33,664 nucleotides of DNA from Anaerobranca gottschalkii DSM 13577 (GTDB taxonomy: Bacteria; Bacillota; Proteinivoracia; Proteinivoracales; Proteinivoracaceae): the NCBI RefSeq assembly GCF_900111575.1, contig NZ_FOIF01000020.1, forward strand, positions 1 through 33,664, read 5' to 3'. Positions 12,634 to 21,644 of the stretch are shown piece by piece. Position 1 is the first letter of the stretch, and each line of letters begins with the position of its first letter. Made by a program: the position numbers and the translations under genes. Below the pieces are notes generated by a model. It ran no database searches and had not been told where the DNA came from. It saw only the letters and a list, made by a program, of their open reading frames with translations.

Positions 12634-13332
12634 ATGGAAAAGATCTTAATTGTCGATGATGATCCTAACATTTGTGAAGTTGTCAAATTATACCTAAATA
12701 ACGAAGGATACAAAACAACCATCGCTCATGATGGTAAATCTGCTATAGATAATTTTCGTGATCAAAAACCTGATTTAATAATTCTTGATATAATGCTTCC
12801 TATACTTAATGGGTATGAAGTATTAAAGGAAATTCGAAAAGAAAGTGATATCCCAATCATTATGTTGACAGCAAAGGATGATGTAATTGATAAAGTAGTA
12901 GGATTTGAAATAGGTGCCGATGATTATGTAGTTAAGCCCTTTGAACCTAGGGAGTTAGTAGCAAGGGTAAAAGCAGCTATCCGTAGAGCTACTTTAATTA
13001 AATCATCTATTGATAATAAGGATAAAGATGAAAAAATCATCAGTTATCCAGATTTAGTTATCAATCTTTCCTCTTATTTAGTTAGTTATTACGGTAAAAA
13101 CATTGAGCTTTCACCAAAGGAAATTGAACTTTTATTTTTCTTGGCCTCTCATCCAAACAAAGTTTTTACTAGGGAGTATTTATTAGAAAAAATTTGGGAT
13201 TATAATTATCCGGGGAATTCCAGAACAGTAGATGAACATATTAAAAGACTAAGAAAAAAAATTCCCGATCACAAAAATTGGGCAATTACCACCGTTTGGG
13301 GGGTTGGTTATAAGTTTGAGGTGAAGATTTAA
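12634..13332 (+). CDS. OmpR/PhoB-family response regulator
   Basis: A 232-aa protein. The receiver domain has the acidic pair D8-D9, phospho-acceptor D52 (in ILDIMLP), T79 and K101 (in VVKPF), followed by a C-terminal winged-helix DNA-binding domain (about residues 130-230) with YLLEKIWDYNYPGNSRTVDEH-type OmpR sequence. AAAGGAGG lies before the ATG. Its stop overlaps the kinase start (TAATG), so the pair is co-translated. The target genes are unknown; divergent lctP is a neighbour but has its own FadR-type operator. Confidence 0.95.
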   Translation: MEKILIVDDDPNICEVVKLYLNNEGYKTTIAHDGKSAIDNFRDQKPDLIILDIMLPILNGYEVLKEIRKESDIPIIMLTAKDDVIDKVVGFEIGADDYVVKPFEPRELVARVKAAIRRATLIKSSIDNKDKDEKIISYPDLVINLSSYLVSYYGKNIELSPKEIELLFFLASHPNKVFTREYLLEKIWDYNYPGNSRTVDEHIKRLRKKIPDHKNWAITTVWGVGYKFEVKI

Positions 13333-14753
13333 TGCTAAAAAGAAGGAGCCTTTTTGCAAAACTGTTAATTATTTATACAATGGTGCTAGTCCTTATTTTG
13401 TTTGCTATTTCTGTAGTTTTACGGATTTCCTTTCAAAGGTTATATTATTTAGATGAGTTTAGAAGGTTAGAAAATACCGCTAAAGAAATTTCTGATATTT
13501 TTATACAGTATCAGGAAGGACAAATCAGTTATTTAGAATTTGGAATAGCCGTAAGGACCTTTTCTCAAGCTACCAATGCCATTGTCCTCATAACAGACTT
13601 AGAAGGAAGAATACTATTTAATTCATCTATGATTATGATGGGAGGAAGACATCACCTAGGACAACGGACTTACTTAAAAGAAACTTTTATGCCCCAACTA
13701 AATAAAGCTGCATCGGGATGTAATGTCAGAGAATTATCAATTTCCACCGAAACATCGGAAAGGGCATTAAACCTTTTCACACCTTTAATAAAAGATAATA
13801 AAACTCTAGGAATTATTATTATAAGTCAACCAGTTCAAGATATTACCGGTATAGTCAAGAGGGTTAATGGACTAATTTGGTTTGTTGGACTTACAGGTAG
13901 TTTAGTTACTGTTTTTGCTTCTTTTATACTTTCTAAAAGGTTTACAAAACCAATTATCCAACTAAATAATGCTGCTTTATCTATGGCTTCTGGCCGTTTT
14001 GTACCAGTCCATGTTAAAACAGATGATGAACTAGAACAACTGGCAAATTCCTTTAATTACATGGGAGAGCAATTGGCAAAACAAGATGAAAATCACCGCC
14101 AGTTTTTATCCACTGTTTCCCATGAACTTAGAACACCATTAACATCTACTTTAGGTTTTATTCAAGGTATGATAGATGGAATTATCACTGCTGAACAACA
14201 AGAGCATTATTTAAAAATTACCGTCAATGAAATTAAGAGAATGATCAATTTAACCAATGACCTTTTAGATTTAGAGAGGATTAAACAAGGACATATTCAA
14301 CTTCACCGCAATCCCTTTAATCTATCCCAATTGATGGAAGAGTGTATCCAACAACTTACTCCCCTTTATGAAGATAAGGGCGTCAAAGTAACCTTCTCTT
14401 CCCCACAACAGTTAAATTTTGTTGGAGATAGAGATCGATTAAAACAAGTTTTTGTCAACCTTTTAGATAATGCCATCAGATATGCTAACAAAAGGGTAGA
14501 AATAGAAATGACTTCTAAAACTAAAGCTTTAGAAGTCACTATTAAGGACGATGGCCCAGGGATTTCTGAAGAAGACCTCCCTTATATTTTCCAAAGGTTT
14601 TATAAAGGGGATAAATCCCGTTCTACTAAAAAAGGTGGAGCTGGTCTAGGGTTGGCTATCGCTAAACACTTAATTCAGTTACACGGAGGGGATATTTATG
14701 TAATTCCCTCTGATTTAGGGGCTGTATTTAAAGTTATTTTACCTAAAAATTAA
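13332..14753 (+). CDS. Membrane sensor histidine kinase
   Basis: A 473-aa kinase, partner of the response regulator whose stop codon it overlaps by one base. Domains in order: transmembrane helix 1 (about 11-31), an extracytoplasmic sensor of about 145 aa, transmembrane helix 2 (about 180-200), HAMP linker (201-255), HisKA with phospho-acceptor H264 in TVSHELRTPL, and HATPase_c with the N box NLLDNAIRYA, DDGPGIS and GGAGLGLAIAKHL. The signal sensed cannot be inferred; the sensor domain resembles the PAS/dCache-like folds common in Firmicutes kinases of this shape. It ends directly at a terminator hairpin that has been split by the repeat element. Confidence 0.94.
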   Translation: MLKRRSLFAKLLIIYTMVLVLILFAISVVLRISFQRLYYLDEFRRLENTAKEISDIFIQYQEGQISYLEFGIAVRTFSQATNAIVLITDLEGRILFNSSMIMMGGRHHLGQRTYLKETFMPQLNKAASGCNVRELSISTETSERALNLFTPLIKDNKTLGIIIISQPVQDITGIVKRVNGLIWFVGLTGSLVTVFASFILSKRFTKPIIQLNNAALSMASGRFVPVHVKTDDELEQLANSFNYMGEQLAKQDENHRQFLSTVSHELRTPLTSTLGFIQGMIDGIITAEQQEHYLKITVNEIKRMINLTNDLLDLERIKQGHIQLHRNPFNLSQLMEECIQQLTPLYEDKGVKVTFSSPQQLNFVGDRDRLKQVFVNLLDNAIRYANKRVEIEMTSKTKALEVTIKDDGPGISEEDLPYIFQRFYKGDKSRSTKKGGAGLGLAIAKHLIQLHGGDIYVIPSDLGAVFKVILPKN

Positions 14754-14775
14754 AGAGGAGCAAATAAGCTCCTCT
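14754..14775. repeat. Terminator hairpin, first copy of a 22-bp direct duplication
   Basis: AGAGGAGC-AAATAA-GCTCCTCT, an 8-bp stem immediately after the histidine kinase stop. The identical 22 bp recur at 15045-15066, bracketing the repeat element. Before the duplication this would have been one bidirectional terminator shared with the convergent amidohydrolase gene. This copy has lost its T run on the plus strand, because the element begins straight after the stem. Confidence 0.9.
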
Positions 14776-15044
14776 CAGTTTGTAGACAAAGTCATTTTTT
14801 AAAGGCTGTGGTAATTAAACATTCTAACAAAGTCTCCGTCGAGATTTAAGGCTTCTATCTAAAAGGAAGAAGGGTACCGCTCTAATTCGCCGTCCATGGC
14901 TCAATAGAGCTTTCGGAACGTCCTGTTCCTCACCCCTTCTTCCTTTTATCTAATCAGCTCTTAAATCTACCTCCTCGACTTAATCGTATCTTTGTTTAAT
15001 TACCACAGCTGATGATGACTTTGTTATAGTTTGTCTTCAGTCTG
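14776..15044 (-). mobile_element. MITE-like foldback element, copy A
   Basis: A 269-bp noncoding element; its reverse complement matches 21008-21278 with only about eight differences by eye. The ends are imperfect inverted repeats sharing TAGACAAAGTCAT and GTGGTAATTAAACA (one base of the first is missing at one end of this copy). Inside, AAAAGGAAGAAGGG pairs with CCCTTCTTCCTTTT around a GC-richer core with smaller stems (GGAAC/GTTCC and GCTC/GAGC), so most of the element can fold back on itself. It carries no credible gene. The flanking 22-bp hairpins are direct repeats, as expected of a target-site duplication. No transposase for it is visible in the window. Confidence 0.85.
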
Positions 15045-15066
15045 AGAGGAGCAAATAAGCTCCTCT
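15045..15066. repeat. Terminator hairpin, second copy of the 22-bp duplication
   Basis: Identical to 14754-14775. It lies directly after the stop codon of the minus-strand amidohydrolase. Read from that gene the stem is followed by element sequence, not by T residues, so termination now may depend on the foldback of the element. Confidence 0.9.
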
Positions 15067-16239
15067 TTAGCCTTTATAAGCACATTTACCATTTACAAAG
15101 GTATATAAACATTTAGCGGTGAAGTTAAAGGGGTGTTTATCATAAACGGCAATATCTGCATCCTTACCTTCTTCTAAAGAACCTAATCTATGTTCTAAAC
15201 CTAAAGTTTTGGCTGGATTTATTGTAATCATTTTTAATGCCTCATATTCATCTAACCCTTCCCTTACTGCTAATGCTGCTGCATGGATTAACTGATAGAT
15301 TGGCAATACTGGATGATCTGTAGTTATAGATACTGTTAATCCAGCATCAGATAAGATCTTCAGTGACTTCAAAGTCTTGTTTTTAGTTTCAATTTTAGAA
15401 GGAACACCTAAGGATGGACCTACTACTAAAGGATAATTAAATTTTGCTACATAATCCACAATCAAATGGGCTTCACTGGCATGTTCAATAGACATTTCAA
15501 AATCAAACTCTTGGGCAATACGAATAGCTGTGGCTATATCATCTGCCCTATGGGCATGGATCCTTAAAGGCATTTCTTTATTTATTACCTTTAATATGTT
15601 TTCAAGTTTTAAATTCCTTTCTGGTTCTTTATCTCCATTTTCTTTTCCTTTATTTAACTTCCTTTGGTAATTGAGGGCTTCCACAAGGGCTTCCCGTAAG
15701 GTAGCCGCTGTACCCATTCTTGTAGATGGACACATTTTTTTACTATTATAAACCCGCTTAGGATTTTCCCCTAAGGCAGCTTTTAAACCGGCGTAATTTT
15801 TTACAACCCTCGATTCTATGATAATATTCTCTGACCAATTTTTTACTACCACTCCAACTCCACCTACCACATTACCACTTCCTGGTATTACAAAGGATGT
15901 GGTAATACCAGCTTTGATAGCATCGGTAAAACCGCTATCACTAGGGTTAATGGCATCTAAAGCAAAAAGATTTGCCGTATTAGGTGAAGTTAATTCATTA
16001 CCGTCAGCCCCTTCAAAACCCATTCCCTGTTCATAAATCCCTAAATGGGTATGGGGATCGATAAATCCTGGAAATACTAAAGCTCCATTTAAATCGATGA
16101 CTTCACAATCTTCTGGGATTGAAAAATCCCCAACTTTTGCAATTTTATCATCTTCTATTAACAAATTACCATAAAATGGCTCCCGATCTTTAATGGTATA
16201 TAATAAACCATTAACTAAAGCTTTTTTTCTAGCGTTCAT
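15067..16239 (-). CDS. Amidohydrolase, imidazolonepropionase-like (second of a tandem pair)
   Basis: A metal-dependent hydrolase of about 390 aa, COG1228-like. Metal and catalytic motifs: DPHTHLG, RIHAHRADD, SIEHASEAH and TTDHPV. The closing residues form the usual C-terminal beta segment (GKDADIAVYD). The longer frame begins at 16254, but GGAGAG lies 7 nt before the ATG at 16239, which I prefer; it overlaps the upstream paralogue by 11 bp. The two proteins are clearly homologous along their whole length and share the unusual motif GMGFEGADGNE. The substrate is unknown: cyclic amides, dipeptide-like or hydantoin-like compounds are all possible. Confidence 0.88.
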   Translation of the reverse strand: MNARKKALVNGLLYTIKDREPFYGNLLIEDDKIAKVGDFSIPEDCEVIDLNGALVFPGFIDPHTHLGIYEQGMGFEGADGNELTSPNTANLFALDAINPSDSGFTDAIKAGITTSFVIPGSGNVVGGVGVVVKNWSENIIIESRVVKNYAGLKAALGENPKRVYNSKKMCPSTRMGTAATLREALVEALNYQRKLNKGKENGDKEPERNLKLENILKVINKEMPLRIHAHRADDIATAIRIAQEFDFEMSIEHASEAHLIVDYVAKFNYPLVVGPSLGVPSKIETKNKTLKSLKILSDAGLTVSITTDHPVLPIYQLIHAAALAVREGLDEYEALKMITINPAKTLGLEHRLGSLEEGKDADIAVYDKHPFNFTAKCLYTFVNGKCAYKG

Positions 16240-17386
16240 AAACAATCTCTCCATTGATTATCGTTTTTTCCACCACTGTTTTATAATCGAATAAATGACC
16301 ACTTAAAATAATGATATCGGCATCTTTACCTACTTCTAGACTACCAACCCTATCAGCTACACCAATAATTTCCGCTGCATTTATTGTAATAGCTTTTAAA
16401 GCTTCTTCTTCAGGTAAGCCATCTTTATGGGCTAAAGCAGCACAGATTGGTAAATACTGTTGAGGAATAACAGGATGATCTGTCATAATTGCAAATTTAA
16501 CTCCAGCTTCATATAGTATACGCCCTGTTTCAAAGGTTAAATTTTGTAACTCTATCTTAGGTTTTGCAGTAAGGGTTGGACCGATAATTACCGATACCCC
16601 TTTTTTACTTAAGTAATCAGCAATCAAATGACCTTCTGTACAGTGTTCAATGGTTATATTTACATCAAACTCCTCTGCTATTCTTAAAGCAGTAACGATA
16701 TCATCTGCTCTATGGGCATGGGCCCTTAAAGGTATTTCTTTTTTCAATACCTTTACTAAACTTTCCATTTTTAAGTCCCTTTCTGGGGCTTTATCTTCAT
16801 CTTTTTCTCCCTTTTCTAATTTTTTGAGGTAGTTTTGTGCTTTAATCAATTCTTCCCTCATAATGGCAGCAGTACCCATTCGGGTTGTAGGCATTTTCTT
16901 TTGAGAATTATATACCCTCTTAGGATTTTCCCCAAAGGCACATTTTAAACCAGATGGATTGAGAATAACCATTTCATCGATGATTTTACCATATGTTTTC
17001 ATAGCTAAGGCTAAACCACCGATGACATTGGCACTTCCCGGTCCAGATACCACAGTGGTAATACCACCTTTATAGGCATCTACAAAGGCACTATCCATTG
17101 GATTGATAGCATCGATTGCCCTTAAATGGGGTGTTGATGGATTAGTCATTTCATTGCCATCAGCCCCTTCAAAACCCATTCCTTCTTCAAAGATTCCTAT
17201 ATGGGAATGGGCATCAATTATACCTGGCATGACCACTTTCCCAGCTGCATCTATTATCTCAGCTCCTTCTGGGATTTCTAAATCAGTTCCTATCCCTTTA
17301 ATTTTTGTTCCTTCAACTAAAATAGTTCCCTTTTCTAACACTTCTCCTGCCATAGTATAAATTTTTCCATTAACAATTGCTAACAT
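16229..17386 (-). CDS. Amidohydrolase, imidazolonepropionase-like (first of a tandem pair)
   Basis: A 385-aa amidohydrolase-superfamily enzyme. The N-terminal beta segment (residues 1-50) precedes the TIM barrel with DAHSHIG, RAHAHRADD, TIEHCTEGH and the catalytic aspartate in MTDHPV. It is paralogous to the downstream gene and almost certainly arose by tandem duplication. The products may form a heteromer or act on successive substrates; this is inference. AAAAAGGAGG is 8 nt before the ATG, so this gene heads the two-gene unit. Annotation as imidazolonepropionase itself would be over-precise, since no histidine-degradation genes are nearby. Confidence 0.88.
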   Translation of the reverse strand: MLAIVNGKIYTMAGEVLEKGTILVEGTKIKGIGTDLEIPEGAEIIDAAGKVVMPGIIDAHSHIGIFEEGMGFEGADGNEMTNPSTPHLRAIDAINPMDSAFVDAYKGGITTVVSGPGSANVIGGLALAMKTYGKIIDEMVILNPSGLKCAFGENPKRVYNSQKKMPTTRMGTAAIMREELIKAQNYLKKLEKGEKDEDKAPERDLKMESLVKVLKKEIPLRAHAHRADDIVTALRIAEEFDVNITIEHCTEGHLIADYLSKKGVSVIIGPTLTAKPKIELQNLTFETGRILYEAGVKFAIMTDHPVIPQQYLPICAALAHKDGLPEEEALKAITINAAEIIGVADRVGSLEVGKDADIIILSGHLFDYKTVVEKTIINGEIVYER

Positions 17387-20337: not shown

Positions 20338-20997
20338 ATGAGTTTATTTTTAGGCCCCATTCATCATTGGTTATACAATAAAATAATTTTATTTGAAAGA
20401 CTTGAAAAATATATTTTAGATGGATTAATTGCAGAAGTGGGAAAAGAAGCAGAAATACTCTATGGGGAGGCTTGTGATAGATATGGTCAACCTTTAGACC
20501 AAGAAAAAACTTTGGAAGAGATAATAGATCTAGATAATATTCATCAATGGCTTCAAGATAAAATTCAAAGGGCAGAACTGAGACATGGGTATTTCTTAAA
20601 TAAATCCATCGAAAAATTTGGAGATTTAGCCTATGAAGTTGCATTGGAATATTATGCAAAACAAGGTAAGTATTGTGGAGAAAAATGTGAAGAGGAAGCA
20701 AGACCACAAAATGCCCAAGAACTCTATGACCAGTTAAACAATTATATTTTAGATGGTATGCCTTGTGATCATGTAAATCAAGTTCAAATCTCTGAGCCCG
20801 ATTTAGTTCAATGGGAAGTAACCCAATGCCTACATATAGATTATTGGAATCAGGTCGGAATAGACCCAAATAAGATGTACAAGTTAAGGGAAACTTGGAT
20901 TGATGCTTTCGTTGCTTATGCCAATAGTCATTATGAGTATCGTTTTACTAATGATAACGGCATTTTAAAACACGTCATACAAAAAGTGACCCAATAA
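20338..20997 (+). CDS. Unrecognised soluble protein, 219 aa
   Basis: I do not recognise the family. The protein is mostly helical-looking and hydrophilic with no signal peptide or membrane helix. Notable patches are FLGPIHHWLYNKI at the N terminus, the cysteines in GKYCGEKCEE, and DGMPCDHVNQVQ, with several His and Cys that could bind a metal. The C-terminal half is rich in W, Y and N (IDYWNQVGID). AAAAGGGAGG precedes the ATG. Its stop lies in the loop of a terminator hairpin, and the repeat element is inserted immediately after. The frame on the opposite strand (20336-20869) is a mirror shadow with no ribosome site. Confidence 0.7.
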   Translation: MSLFLGPIHHWLYNKIILFERLEKYILDGLIAEVGKEAEILYGEACDRYGQPLDQEKTLEEIIDLDNIHQWLQDKIQRAELRHGYFLNKSIEKFGDLAYEVALEYYAKQGKYCGEKCEEEARPQNAQELYDQLNNYILDGMPCDHVNQVQISEPDLVQWEVTQCLHIDYWNQVGIDPNKMYKLRETWIDAFVAYANSHYEYRFTNDNGILKHVIQKVTQ

Positions 20998-21007
20998 AGG
21001 GTTACTT
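20984..21007. repeat. Terminator hairpin, first copy of a 24-bp direct duplication
   Basis: AAGTGACCC-AATAAA-GGGTTACTT; the stop TAA of the preceding gene lies in its loop. The second copy at 21279-21302 differs at one base (GGGTCAC), which restores a perfect stem, so this copy seems to have acquired one change since duplication. Confidence 0.88.
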
Positions 21008-21278
21008 AAGACTGAAGACAAACTATAGACAAAGTCATCATCAGCAGTGGTAATTAAACAAAGATACGATTAAGTCGAGGAGATAGATTTAAGAGCTGAT
21101 TAGATAAAAGGAAGAAGGGGTGAGGAACAGGACGTTCCGAAAGCTCTATTGAGCCATGGAAGGCGAATTAGAGCGGTACCCTTCTTCCTTTTAGATAGAA
21201 GCCTTAAATCTCGACGCAGAACTTTGTTAAAATGTTTAATTACCACAGCCTTTAAAAAATGACTTTGTCTACAAACTG
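21008..21278 (+). mobile_element. MITE-like foldback element, copy B
   Basis: A 271-bp noncoding element, near-identical to the reverse complement of copy A, so the two stand in opposite orientation 6 kb apart. It has the same imperfect terminal inverted repeats (TAGACAAAGTCAT and GTGGTAATTAAACA near both ends) and the same long internal foldback. Direct flanks are the 24-bp terminator copies. The minus-strand frame of 66 aa across it is not conserved upstream in copy A because of small insertions and deletions, so it is not a gene. Confidence 0.85.
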
Positions 21279-21302
21279 AAGTGACCCAATAAAGGGTCAC
21301 TT
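21279..21302. repeat. Terminator hairpin, second copy of the 24-bp duplication
   Basis: AAGTGACCC-AATAAA-GGGTCACTT, a perfect 9-bp stem followed on the plus strand by a T tract. The minus-strand pseudopilin gene ends inside it (its TGA is part of the stem). In the ancestral order this single hairpin would have ended both convergent genes. Confidence 0.88.
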
Positions 21303-21644
21303 TTTACATTCCTCACATTGAACTTTACCATCTTCATACAAATAAGTTCCACCATTAGGGCAAGTTATTTTGTTTTTAAGATAGCCTTCTTTTACTAAGT
21401 AATCGATAAAATCTTCATTTTTTTCTAAACCTAAATTATTAACATCAAACTCACTTACCTTTTTTACAAATTTATATTGTTCGATGGCTGCTTCAATTAT
21501 TAACCTACTACTAGCACATAGCTCTTCGTTTACTTTTTGGGAACCTATTCCGATATTAGGTACTGTTATGGCTAAGATTACCCCTAAAAGTGTTATAACC
21601 AACAGCACTTCTAATAAAGTAAAACCTTTTTGATTTTTAAACAT
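21297..21644 (-). CDS. Type IV pseudopilin, ComGC-like
   Basis: A 115-aa prepilin. The class III signal is clear: KG|FTLLEVLL with the invariant Glu at +5, and hydrophobic helix 8-30. A short globular domain follows and ends in cysteine-rich segments (CPNGGTYLYEDGKVQCEEC), with the CPxGGxY motif typical of ComGC-like and other minor pseudopilins. No prepilin peptidase, ATPase or inner-membrane platform gene is nearby, so it stands alone. GGGGGT lies before the ATG. Being isolated, its system must be encoded elsewhere, or it may be an orphan paralogue. Confidence 0.88.
   Translation of the reverse strand: MFKNQKGFTLLEVLLVITLLGVILAITVPNIGIGSQKVNEELCASSRLIIEAAIEQYKFVKKVSEFDVNNLGLEKNEDFIDYLVKEGYLKNKITCPNGGTYLYEDGKVQCEECKK

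Follow-up and report, generated by a model that had tools for sequence, protein, structure and literature searches.

The question raised by this locus is how a 270-bp repeat came to lie twice in one stretch of DNA, each time exactly between two copies of a hairpin where the ends of two genes meet, and what moves it and what it carries. The window, by which we mean the whole stretch of 33,664 nt of Anaerobranca gottschalkii DSM 13577 DNA that was analysed, lies on contig C20 of a 2.3 Mb genome assembled in 110 contigs (G000), and its relevant features are collected in Table 1. A preliminary description, made from the sequence alone, had placed copy B between 24-bp hairpin copies differing at one base, in the orientation opposite to copy A and with the stop codons of both neighbouring genes in or next to the stem, and all of this held, the stop codons abutting the hairpins at copy A and lying inside them at copy B. 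The two hairpins of copy A are identical to each other, and copies A and B are 98 % complementary. Element B is non-coding, and the element is predicted to fold into a long, nearly unbroken stem on either strand (z = -12.5 and -12.9). We also note a tandem gene duplication next to copy A (15067-17386), where adjacent paralogous genes of 395 and 385 aa share about 70 % DNA identity over long stretches with a spacing of about 1156 nt.

Table 1. Features of copies A and B and of the RNA core of copy B (positions in the window)
Feature	Position	Strand	Remarks
Gene ending at left hairpin of A	13332..14753	+	
Hairpin duplicate of copy A	14754..14775	.	22 bp, AGAGGAGCAAATAAGCTCCTCT
Mobile element copy A	14776..15044	-	Orientation opposite to B
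Second hairpin duplicate of copy A	15045..15066	.	22 bp; single in the empty site of G001
Gene ending at right hairpin of A	15067..16254	-	
Gene upstream of B	20338..20997	+	Stop within left hairpin of B
Left target hairpin copy of B	20984..21007	.	24 bp, AAGTGACCCAATAAAGGGTTACTT; holds the TAA stop of the upstream gene
Mobile element copy B	21008..21278	+	271 bp, ends aAGACTGAAGACAAAC...TTTGTCTACAAACTG; first base C>A in copy B
Match to Rfam RF01731 (TwoAYGGAY RNA)	21075..21222	+	38.9 bits, below gathering score 43
Stem P1, 5′ strand	21110..21119	+	GGAAGAAGGG; closes the two-hairpin core
Hairpin 1	21124..21138	+	GGAAC[AGGAC]GUUCC, GGA loop
Hairpin 2	21153..21164	+	GCC[AUGGAA]GGC, GGA loop
Stem P1, 3′ strand	21179..21188	+	CCCTTCTTCC
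Right target hairpin copy of B	21279..21302	.	One mismatch to left copy; holds the stop of the downstream gene
Convergent gene downstream of B	21297..21644	-	Stop within right hairpin of B

When the host genome was searched with copy B using BLAST, at least 40 copies were found, mostly 94-98 % identical, together with fragments, and searches with the end pattern added further copies, many of them at contig ends. Nearly every copy in this genome is laid out as a terminator hairpin, then CAG...CTG, then the same hairpin again. In five genomes of the phylum (G000, G002, G257, G128 and G042) the ends and flanks of 81 elements were paired, using a direct-repeat search that made no use of palindromicity and counted a flanking repeat at a score of 12 or more. 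Such a repeat flanks 64 of the 81 testable elements, as against 1.1 % when flanks were shuffled between copies, and all 64 duplicated insertion sites are non-redundant; no clear duplication was found at the other 17, some of which have decayed hairpins on both sides. The hairpin-flanked arrangement is thus not a matter of chance, given at least 40 copies and this excess over shuffled flanks, and the earlier argument to that effect from two like insertions is upheld. No intact autonomous copy was found in G000 by the element-end pattern search, the extra matches being truncated or core-deleted copies, and no relative was detected among plasmids, phages or viral contigs at the sensitivities used. 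Core-pattern matches in Bacteroidales, Limnoglobus and D16-51 contigs were set aside, being without element context and looking like chance.

The preliminary description had allowed that its reading would fail if the flanking repeats proved to be part of the element, and this is not borne out. A search of the genome of the congener G001 gave no match to the element, and when the region of copy A is aligned to contig C9 of G001, its flanks match at 87 % and 85 % and the two matches share precisely 21 nt, the hairpin of the copy A site; the empty site carries ...ATTAAAGAGGAGCAAAATGCTCCTCTTTAGC... once. Because the empty site holds one hairpin, and because the hairpin differs at every site, the flanking repeats are a duplicated target and not parts of the element.

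The duplications are 15-30 bp long (mean 23.2; 64 sites in five genomes) and are in symmetrical register with the hairpin: its centre lies no more than 1 nt from the centre of the duplication in 61 of the 64 sites, both duplication ends fall 0-4 nt outside the outermost G:C pair in 51, and symmetric arm pairing averages 0.77 as against 0.28 in control windows. Target sequences are unrelated between sites, interior positions of the duplicated site holding only 0.03-0.13 bits. The earlier claim that targets share structure and no primary sequence therefore held, except for a weak edge preference (first base A in 53 of 64, last base T in 48 of 64); these A...T edges sit in the A- and T-rich flanks that intrinsic terminators have anyway. 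It had also been claimed that duplication length tracks hairpin length, and this held in part, since it hinges on how the stem is defined: with the stem bounded by its outermost G:C pair the correlation is clear (Spearman rho 0.60, p 1.5e-7), and with the full predicted stem including A/T-tract pairing it is weak and not significant (rho 0.21, p 0.10). As to gene context, the proposed target was a terminator between convergent genes; the terminator part held and convergence failed as a rule, since only seven of the 26 classifiable copies in G000 lie between convergent genes, 19 between co-directional ones and none between divergent ones. We take the target to be a terminator in any gene arrangement that has one, with no need for a convergent pair. 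In the co-directional cases the element lies either way relative to the upstream gene (9 versus 10). Structure-specific targeting is supported, as an inference from end products and without biochemical data.

The probable mobilizer was recognized from the element ends. These read CAGACTG..AGACAAA and CAGTTTG..AGACAAA, and as CAGACTGAAGACAAA and CAGTTTGTAGACAAA they match the ends of insertion sequences (IS) in G383, in G001 and on contig C59 of the host genome itself. The G383 element is 1562 bp long, has the ends CAGTTTGTTGACAAA and CAGACTGTTGACAAA, encodes an IS1182-family transposase and has on either side a copy of the hairpin AAGTGCAGAG..CTCTGCACTT, the two being identical in the stem and different in the loops; the reading frame of this complete copy is broken. 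At contig ends of G001 a hairpin is followed either by CAGACTGTAGACAAACCCC... and then an N-terminal transposase ORF, or by CAGACTGAAGACAAAAGC... and then a C-terminal transposase ORF on the other strand. Two of these contig ends, carrying opposite IS ends, share an identical 32-bp hairpin, longer than any in the 15-30 bp range above, and are most readily explained as opposite flanks of a single insertion, a pairing that rests on the identity of the hairpin, with the IS split over the contig ends. The IS in G383 and G001 thus show the same whole-hairpin duplication as the 270-bp element (exact over 32 bp in G001). Their proteins belong to the NCBIfam IS1182-family model NF033551 (longest 279.7 bits, cutoff 270) and contain the Pfam domains DUF772 and DDE. 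On C59 a truncated IS1182 transposase of 234 aa lies about 110 bp inward from the element end CAGACTGAAGACAAAGTC, which adjoins a hairpin. The G000 assembly, many of whose 110 contigs are broken at repeats, yielded no intact IS1182 element with matching ends; for a MITE (a miniature, non-autonomous element) an intact partner in its own genome is common but not indispensable.

Since its ends and its hairpin duplication match those of IS1182 elements, and a truncated transposase is present in the host, the 270-bp repeat is best read as a non-autonomous mini-transposon (MITE) of the IS1182 group, which we regard as likely. Mobilization in trans by an IS1182-family transposase is inferred from the identity of the ends, which is shown, and from the shared target behaviour; there are no transposition data. 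Five 501-aa IS1182 copies in G002 were rejected as partner, having other ends (GAGGGCACTGAAAAAG) and duplications of about 8 bp. IS1202, which targets dif sites (PMC10132070), was dropped as a candidate, the transposases found being IS1182. We note separately that G002 has other IS1182-like IS with the ends GAGGGCACTG and duplications of about 8 bp (L207 and L208), the one at L208 lying in the loop of a terminator hairpin with GCTTTAGC duplicated.

The full explanation that we think likely is an IS1182 MITE, moved in trans, that takes a terminator hairpin as its target and duplicates the whole of it. The transposase would recognize the element ends plus the terminator hairpin and would link each 3′ end of the element to the 5′ foot of one of the two target stem-loops. 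The simplest substrate would be an extruded cruciform, in which arms of any length would bring the attack points side by side at the four-way junction, and gap repair would then give one complete hairpin on each side; each neighbouring gene would thereby keep a terminator, and at copies A and B its stop codon as well. Attack at the 5′ feet with duplication of the whole stem-loop was drawn on paper as 'pathway b' by Wan et al. (2017; PMC5678879), who proposed for IS1272 a 3′-foot attack in which the stem-loop is lost, and who drew as 'pathway c' the duplication of the loop alone. Our data fit pathway b, with the 5′-foot attack itself inferred; the preference for a cruciform over a single-stranded hairpin is likewise an inference, since the data do not distinguish the two. 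A DDE transposase with a fixed stagger would not produce duplications of 15-32 bp that vary with the stem.

Several other readings can be weighed against this one. In the first, the element spread by site-specific recombination, or by homologous exchange, between terminator repeats, and the flanking hairpins are its attachment sites; this would account for the hairpins that directly adjoin the element on both sides in nearly all copies. This reading is all but excluded, being already refuted by the empty site, where a single hairpin is present, and by the hairpin sequences, which are part of the local terminators and different at every one of the 64 sites; the inverted-repeat ends, moreover, match those of IS1182 elements with a DDE transposase. 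It is also conceivable that the target is a single-stranded hairpin, at a replication fork or in an R-loop, with the second strand attacked later. Terminators do fold readily as single strands, and cruciform extrusion would be poor for several of the short A/T-rich stems, but the duplication is symmetric about the dyad in 61 of 64 sites, as expected for concerted attack on two strands at one junction, and a second coordinated step would be needed; we consider this unlikely. Less likely still is that structure is incidental and that long staggered cuts follow from a preference for A/T-flanked dyad symmetry or from a protein bound at terminators (such as RNA polymerase or NusA). The weak A...T edge preference in A/T-rich flanks speaks for it, but duplications that vary with the stem over 15-30 bp (rho 0.60), and the 32-bp case besides, are not what a fixed stagger would give.

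The body of the MITE matches an RNA family, TwoAYGGAY (RF01731). An Rfam search of the window at the gathering threshold gave no match, and the family was found by a permissive search; six of 18 scanned loci score 43.0-44.6 bits and one other copy 45.7, the gathering score being 43. The core has two GGA-loop hairpins, whose loops AGGAC and AUGGAA are AYGGAY-like. GGA is kept in both loops in G002, G257, G128, G042 and Syntrophomonas, and the stems vary between lineages with pairing intact (GGAAC/GUUCC, GAAAC/GUUUC, GCC/GGC and GGCGCC/GGCGCC); most G257 elements keep both hairpins but score under the model threshold used. TwoAYGGAY occurs in 51 of 398 genomes of the phylum, often in multiple copies. 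In G042, G128 and G257 it lies in elements whose ends and hairpin duplications match those of the G000 element, whereas in G022, G039, G068, G080, G250, G297 and G343 the repeats that contain it are about 255-310 bp long, have other ends and showed no detected hairpin duplication. Among the multicopy repeats with unrelated ends are those at L137 and L138 (G250), L156-L158 (G039), L159-L161 (G080) and L174 and L175 (G343), and one such end, GAGTCACGGGGACGGTTCT, resembles RAYT-associated repeats; the unrelated ends suggest that mobile repeats of several kinds may have picked up the RNA. Syntrophomonas sp. MAG STD2_151 also has a multicopy repeat, a longer one, whose TwoAYGGAY core scores 31.8 bits (L081, L082, L084 and L085).

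TwoAYGGAY was described as a probable RNA, not clearly cis-regulatory and of unknown function (Weinberg 2010; PMC2864571), and a motif study proposed that it is bound by CsrA (PMC4333381). The csrA gene is present in 282 of the 398 genomes, in 49 of the 51 with TwoAYGGAY and 233 of the 347 without it (Fisher p 4e-6, uncorrected for phylogeny). In G000 itself csrA lies on contig C9 at 36476-36631. The core could therefore be a CsrA-binding RNA, a possibility inferred indirectly from the loop motif and this co-occurrence, without binding data. It is also possible that the core is merely a strong palindrome that aids transposition or acts as a landing pad. Core-deleted derivatives at their own hairpins (L060, L056 and L075) and the targeting of a core hairpin loop by another IS1182 element in G002 favour the palindrome. 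Against it stand the GGA retained in each loop although the stem sequences vary between lineages without loss of pairing, and the fact that Rfam models the core as a conserved RNA, present across the phylum, with which csrA co-occurs. A bolder reading, to which we give rather less than even credence, is that mini-transposons spread a CsrA-binding RNA to the 3′ ends of genes through shape-reading, hairpin-duplicating transposition; were it true, TwoAYGGAY would be a mobile post-transcriptional regulator or a CsrA sponge, not an ordinary cis-regulatory RNA. Core-deleted and short derivatives of the element were seen in G000 at L060, L056, L064, L074 and L075, several of them at their own hairpins, and the RNA core may therefore be dispensable for transposition.

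The MITE is itself a target for other IS. At least 12 MITE copies in G002 (L244-L251 and L256-L259) hold a different IS1182-family IS of 1656 bp (ends CAGACTGTGTG, 392.9 bits). Its insertion point is one and the same nucleotide within the hairpin 1 loop in all of them, GACGT (5 bp) being duplicated there, and the IS occurs either way round. Most copies of this IS are 99-100 % alike and their host MITEs 89-98 % alike, and its orientation does not segregate with the host MITE sequence. Repeated independent homing into the loop of hairpin 1 fits these data best; it resembles pathway c. Two MITE copies of G000 (L071:5604-5929 and L058:6750-6860) have in their P1 hairpin a further IS, with ends GGGGCTGTCGGGAAATAG and GGGATTGTCGGGAAATAG; at a third copy (L010, after the element) this IS occupies the right-hand target hairpin, and it may target hairpins too.

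Structure-guided DDE transposition with duplication of a whole stem-loop can now be studied on an abundant natural data set of 64 sites in five genomes, plus one empty site; the product was drawn in 2017 and is otherwise undocumented in the searchable literature (subscription journals and ISfinder lay outside our search). Whether duplication length follows stem length becomes directly testable. The orphan family TwoAYGGAY gains a home as the body of a mobile repeat, with a CsrA link that can be tested. Dozens of intergenic insertions per genome can be tolerated at low cost because each leaves a terminator to both neighbours.

Among known systems, insertion into or next to a hairpin is shared by IS200/IS605 elements, REP/RAYT and group IIC introns, although the enzymes differ there (an HUH tyrosine transposase or a reverse transcriptase), and to our knowledge none of them duplicates a whole hairpin target; IS200/IS605 and REP insertion is characterized by the absence of target duplication, in contrast to the duplications of 15-30 bp found here. 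For the IS1182 family, ISfinder gives variable direct repeats, and whole-hairpin duplication may be recorded there unanalysed. The articles on TwoAYGGAY that we examined (PMC2864571 and PMC4333381) do not mention mobility, whereas here and in at least nine other genomes it forms the body of multicopy repeats of 255-310 bp. Other short non-autonomous elements with an IS1182-family partner are known, for example the MITEs of ISMac2 in Methanosarcina acetivorans (PMC3852290), but these are 160-169 bp long with listed direct repeats of 4 or 0 bp, in contrast to the 15-30 bp hairpin duplications and conserved RNA body of the present element. A close parallel in targeting is IS1272/TnSha1, shown to delete the stem-loop at terminators (Furi 2016; PMC4923244), which shares with the present elements an IS1182-family transposase and terminator or inverted-repeat hairpin targets without a primary-sequence consensus. 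Stem-loop replacement of the IS1272 type is not what we find, since IS1272 deletes the stem-loop and makes no duplication, whereas here the whole stem-loop is duplicated, at 64 sites and from the one hairpin of the empty site, and the majority of copies, at 270 bp, have no transposase.
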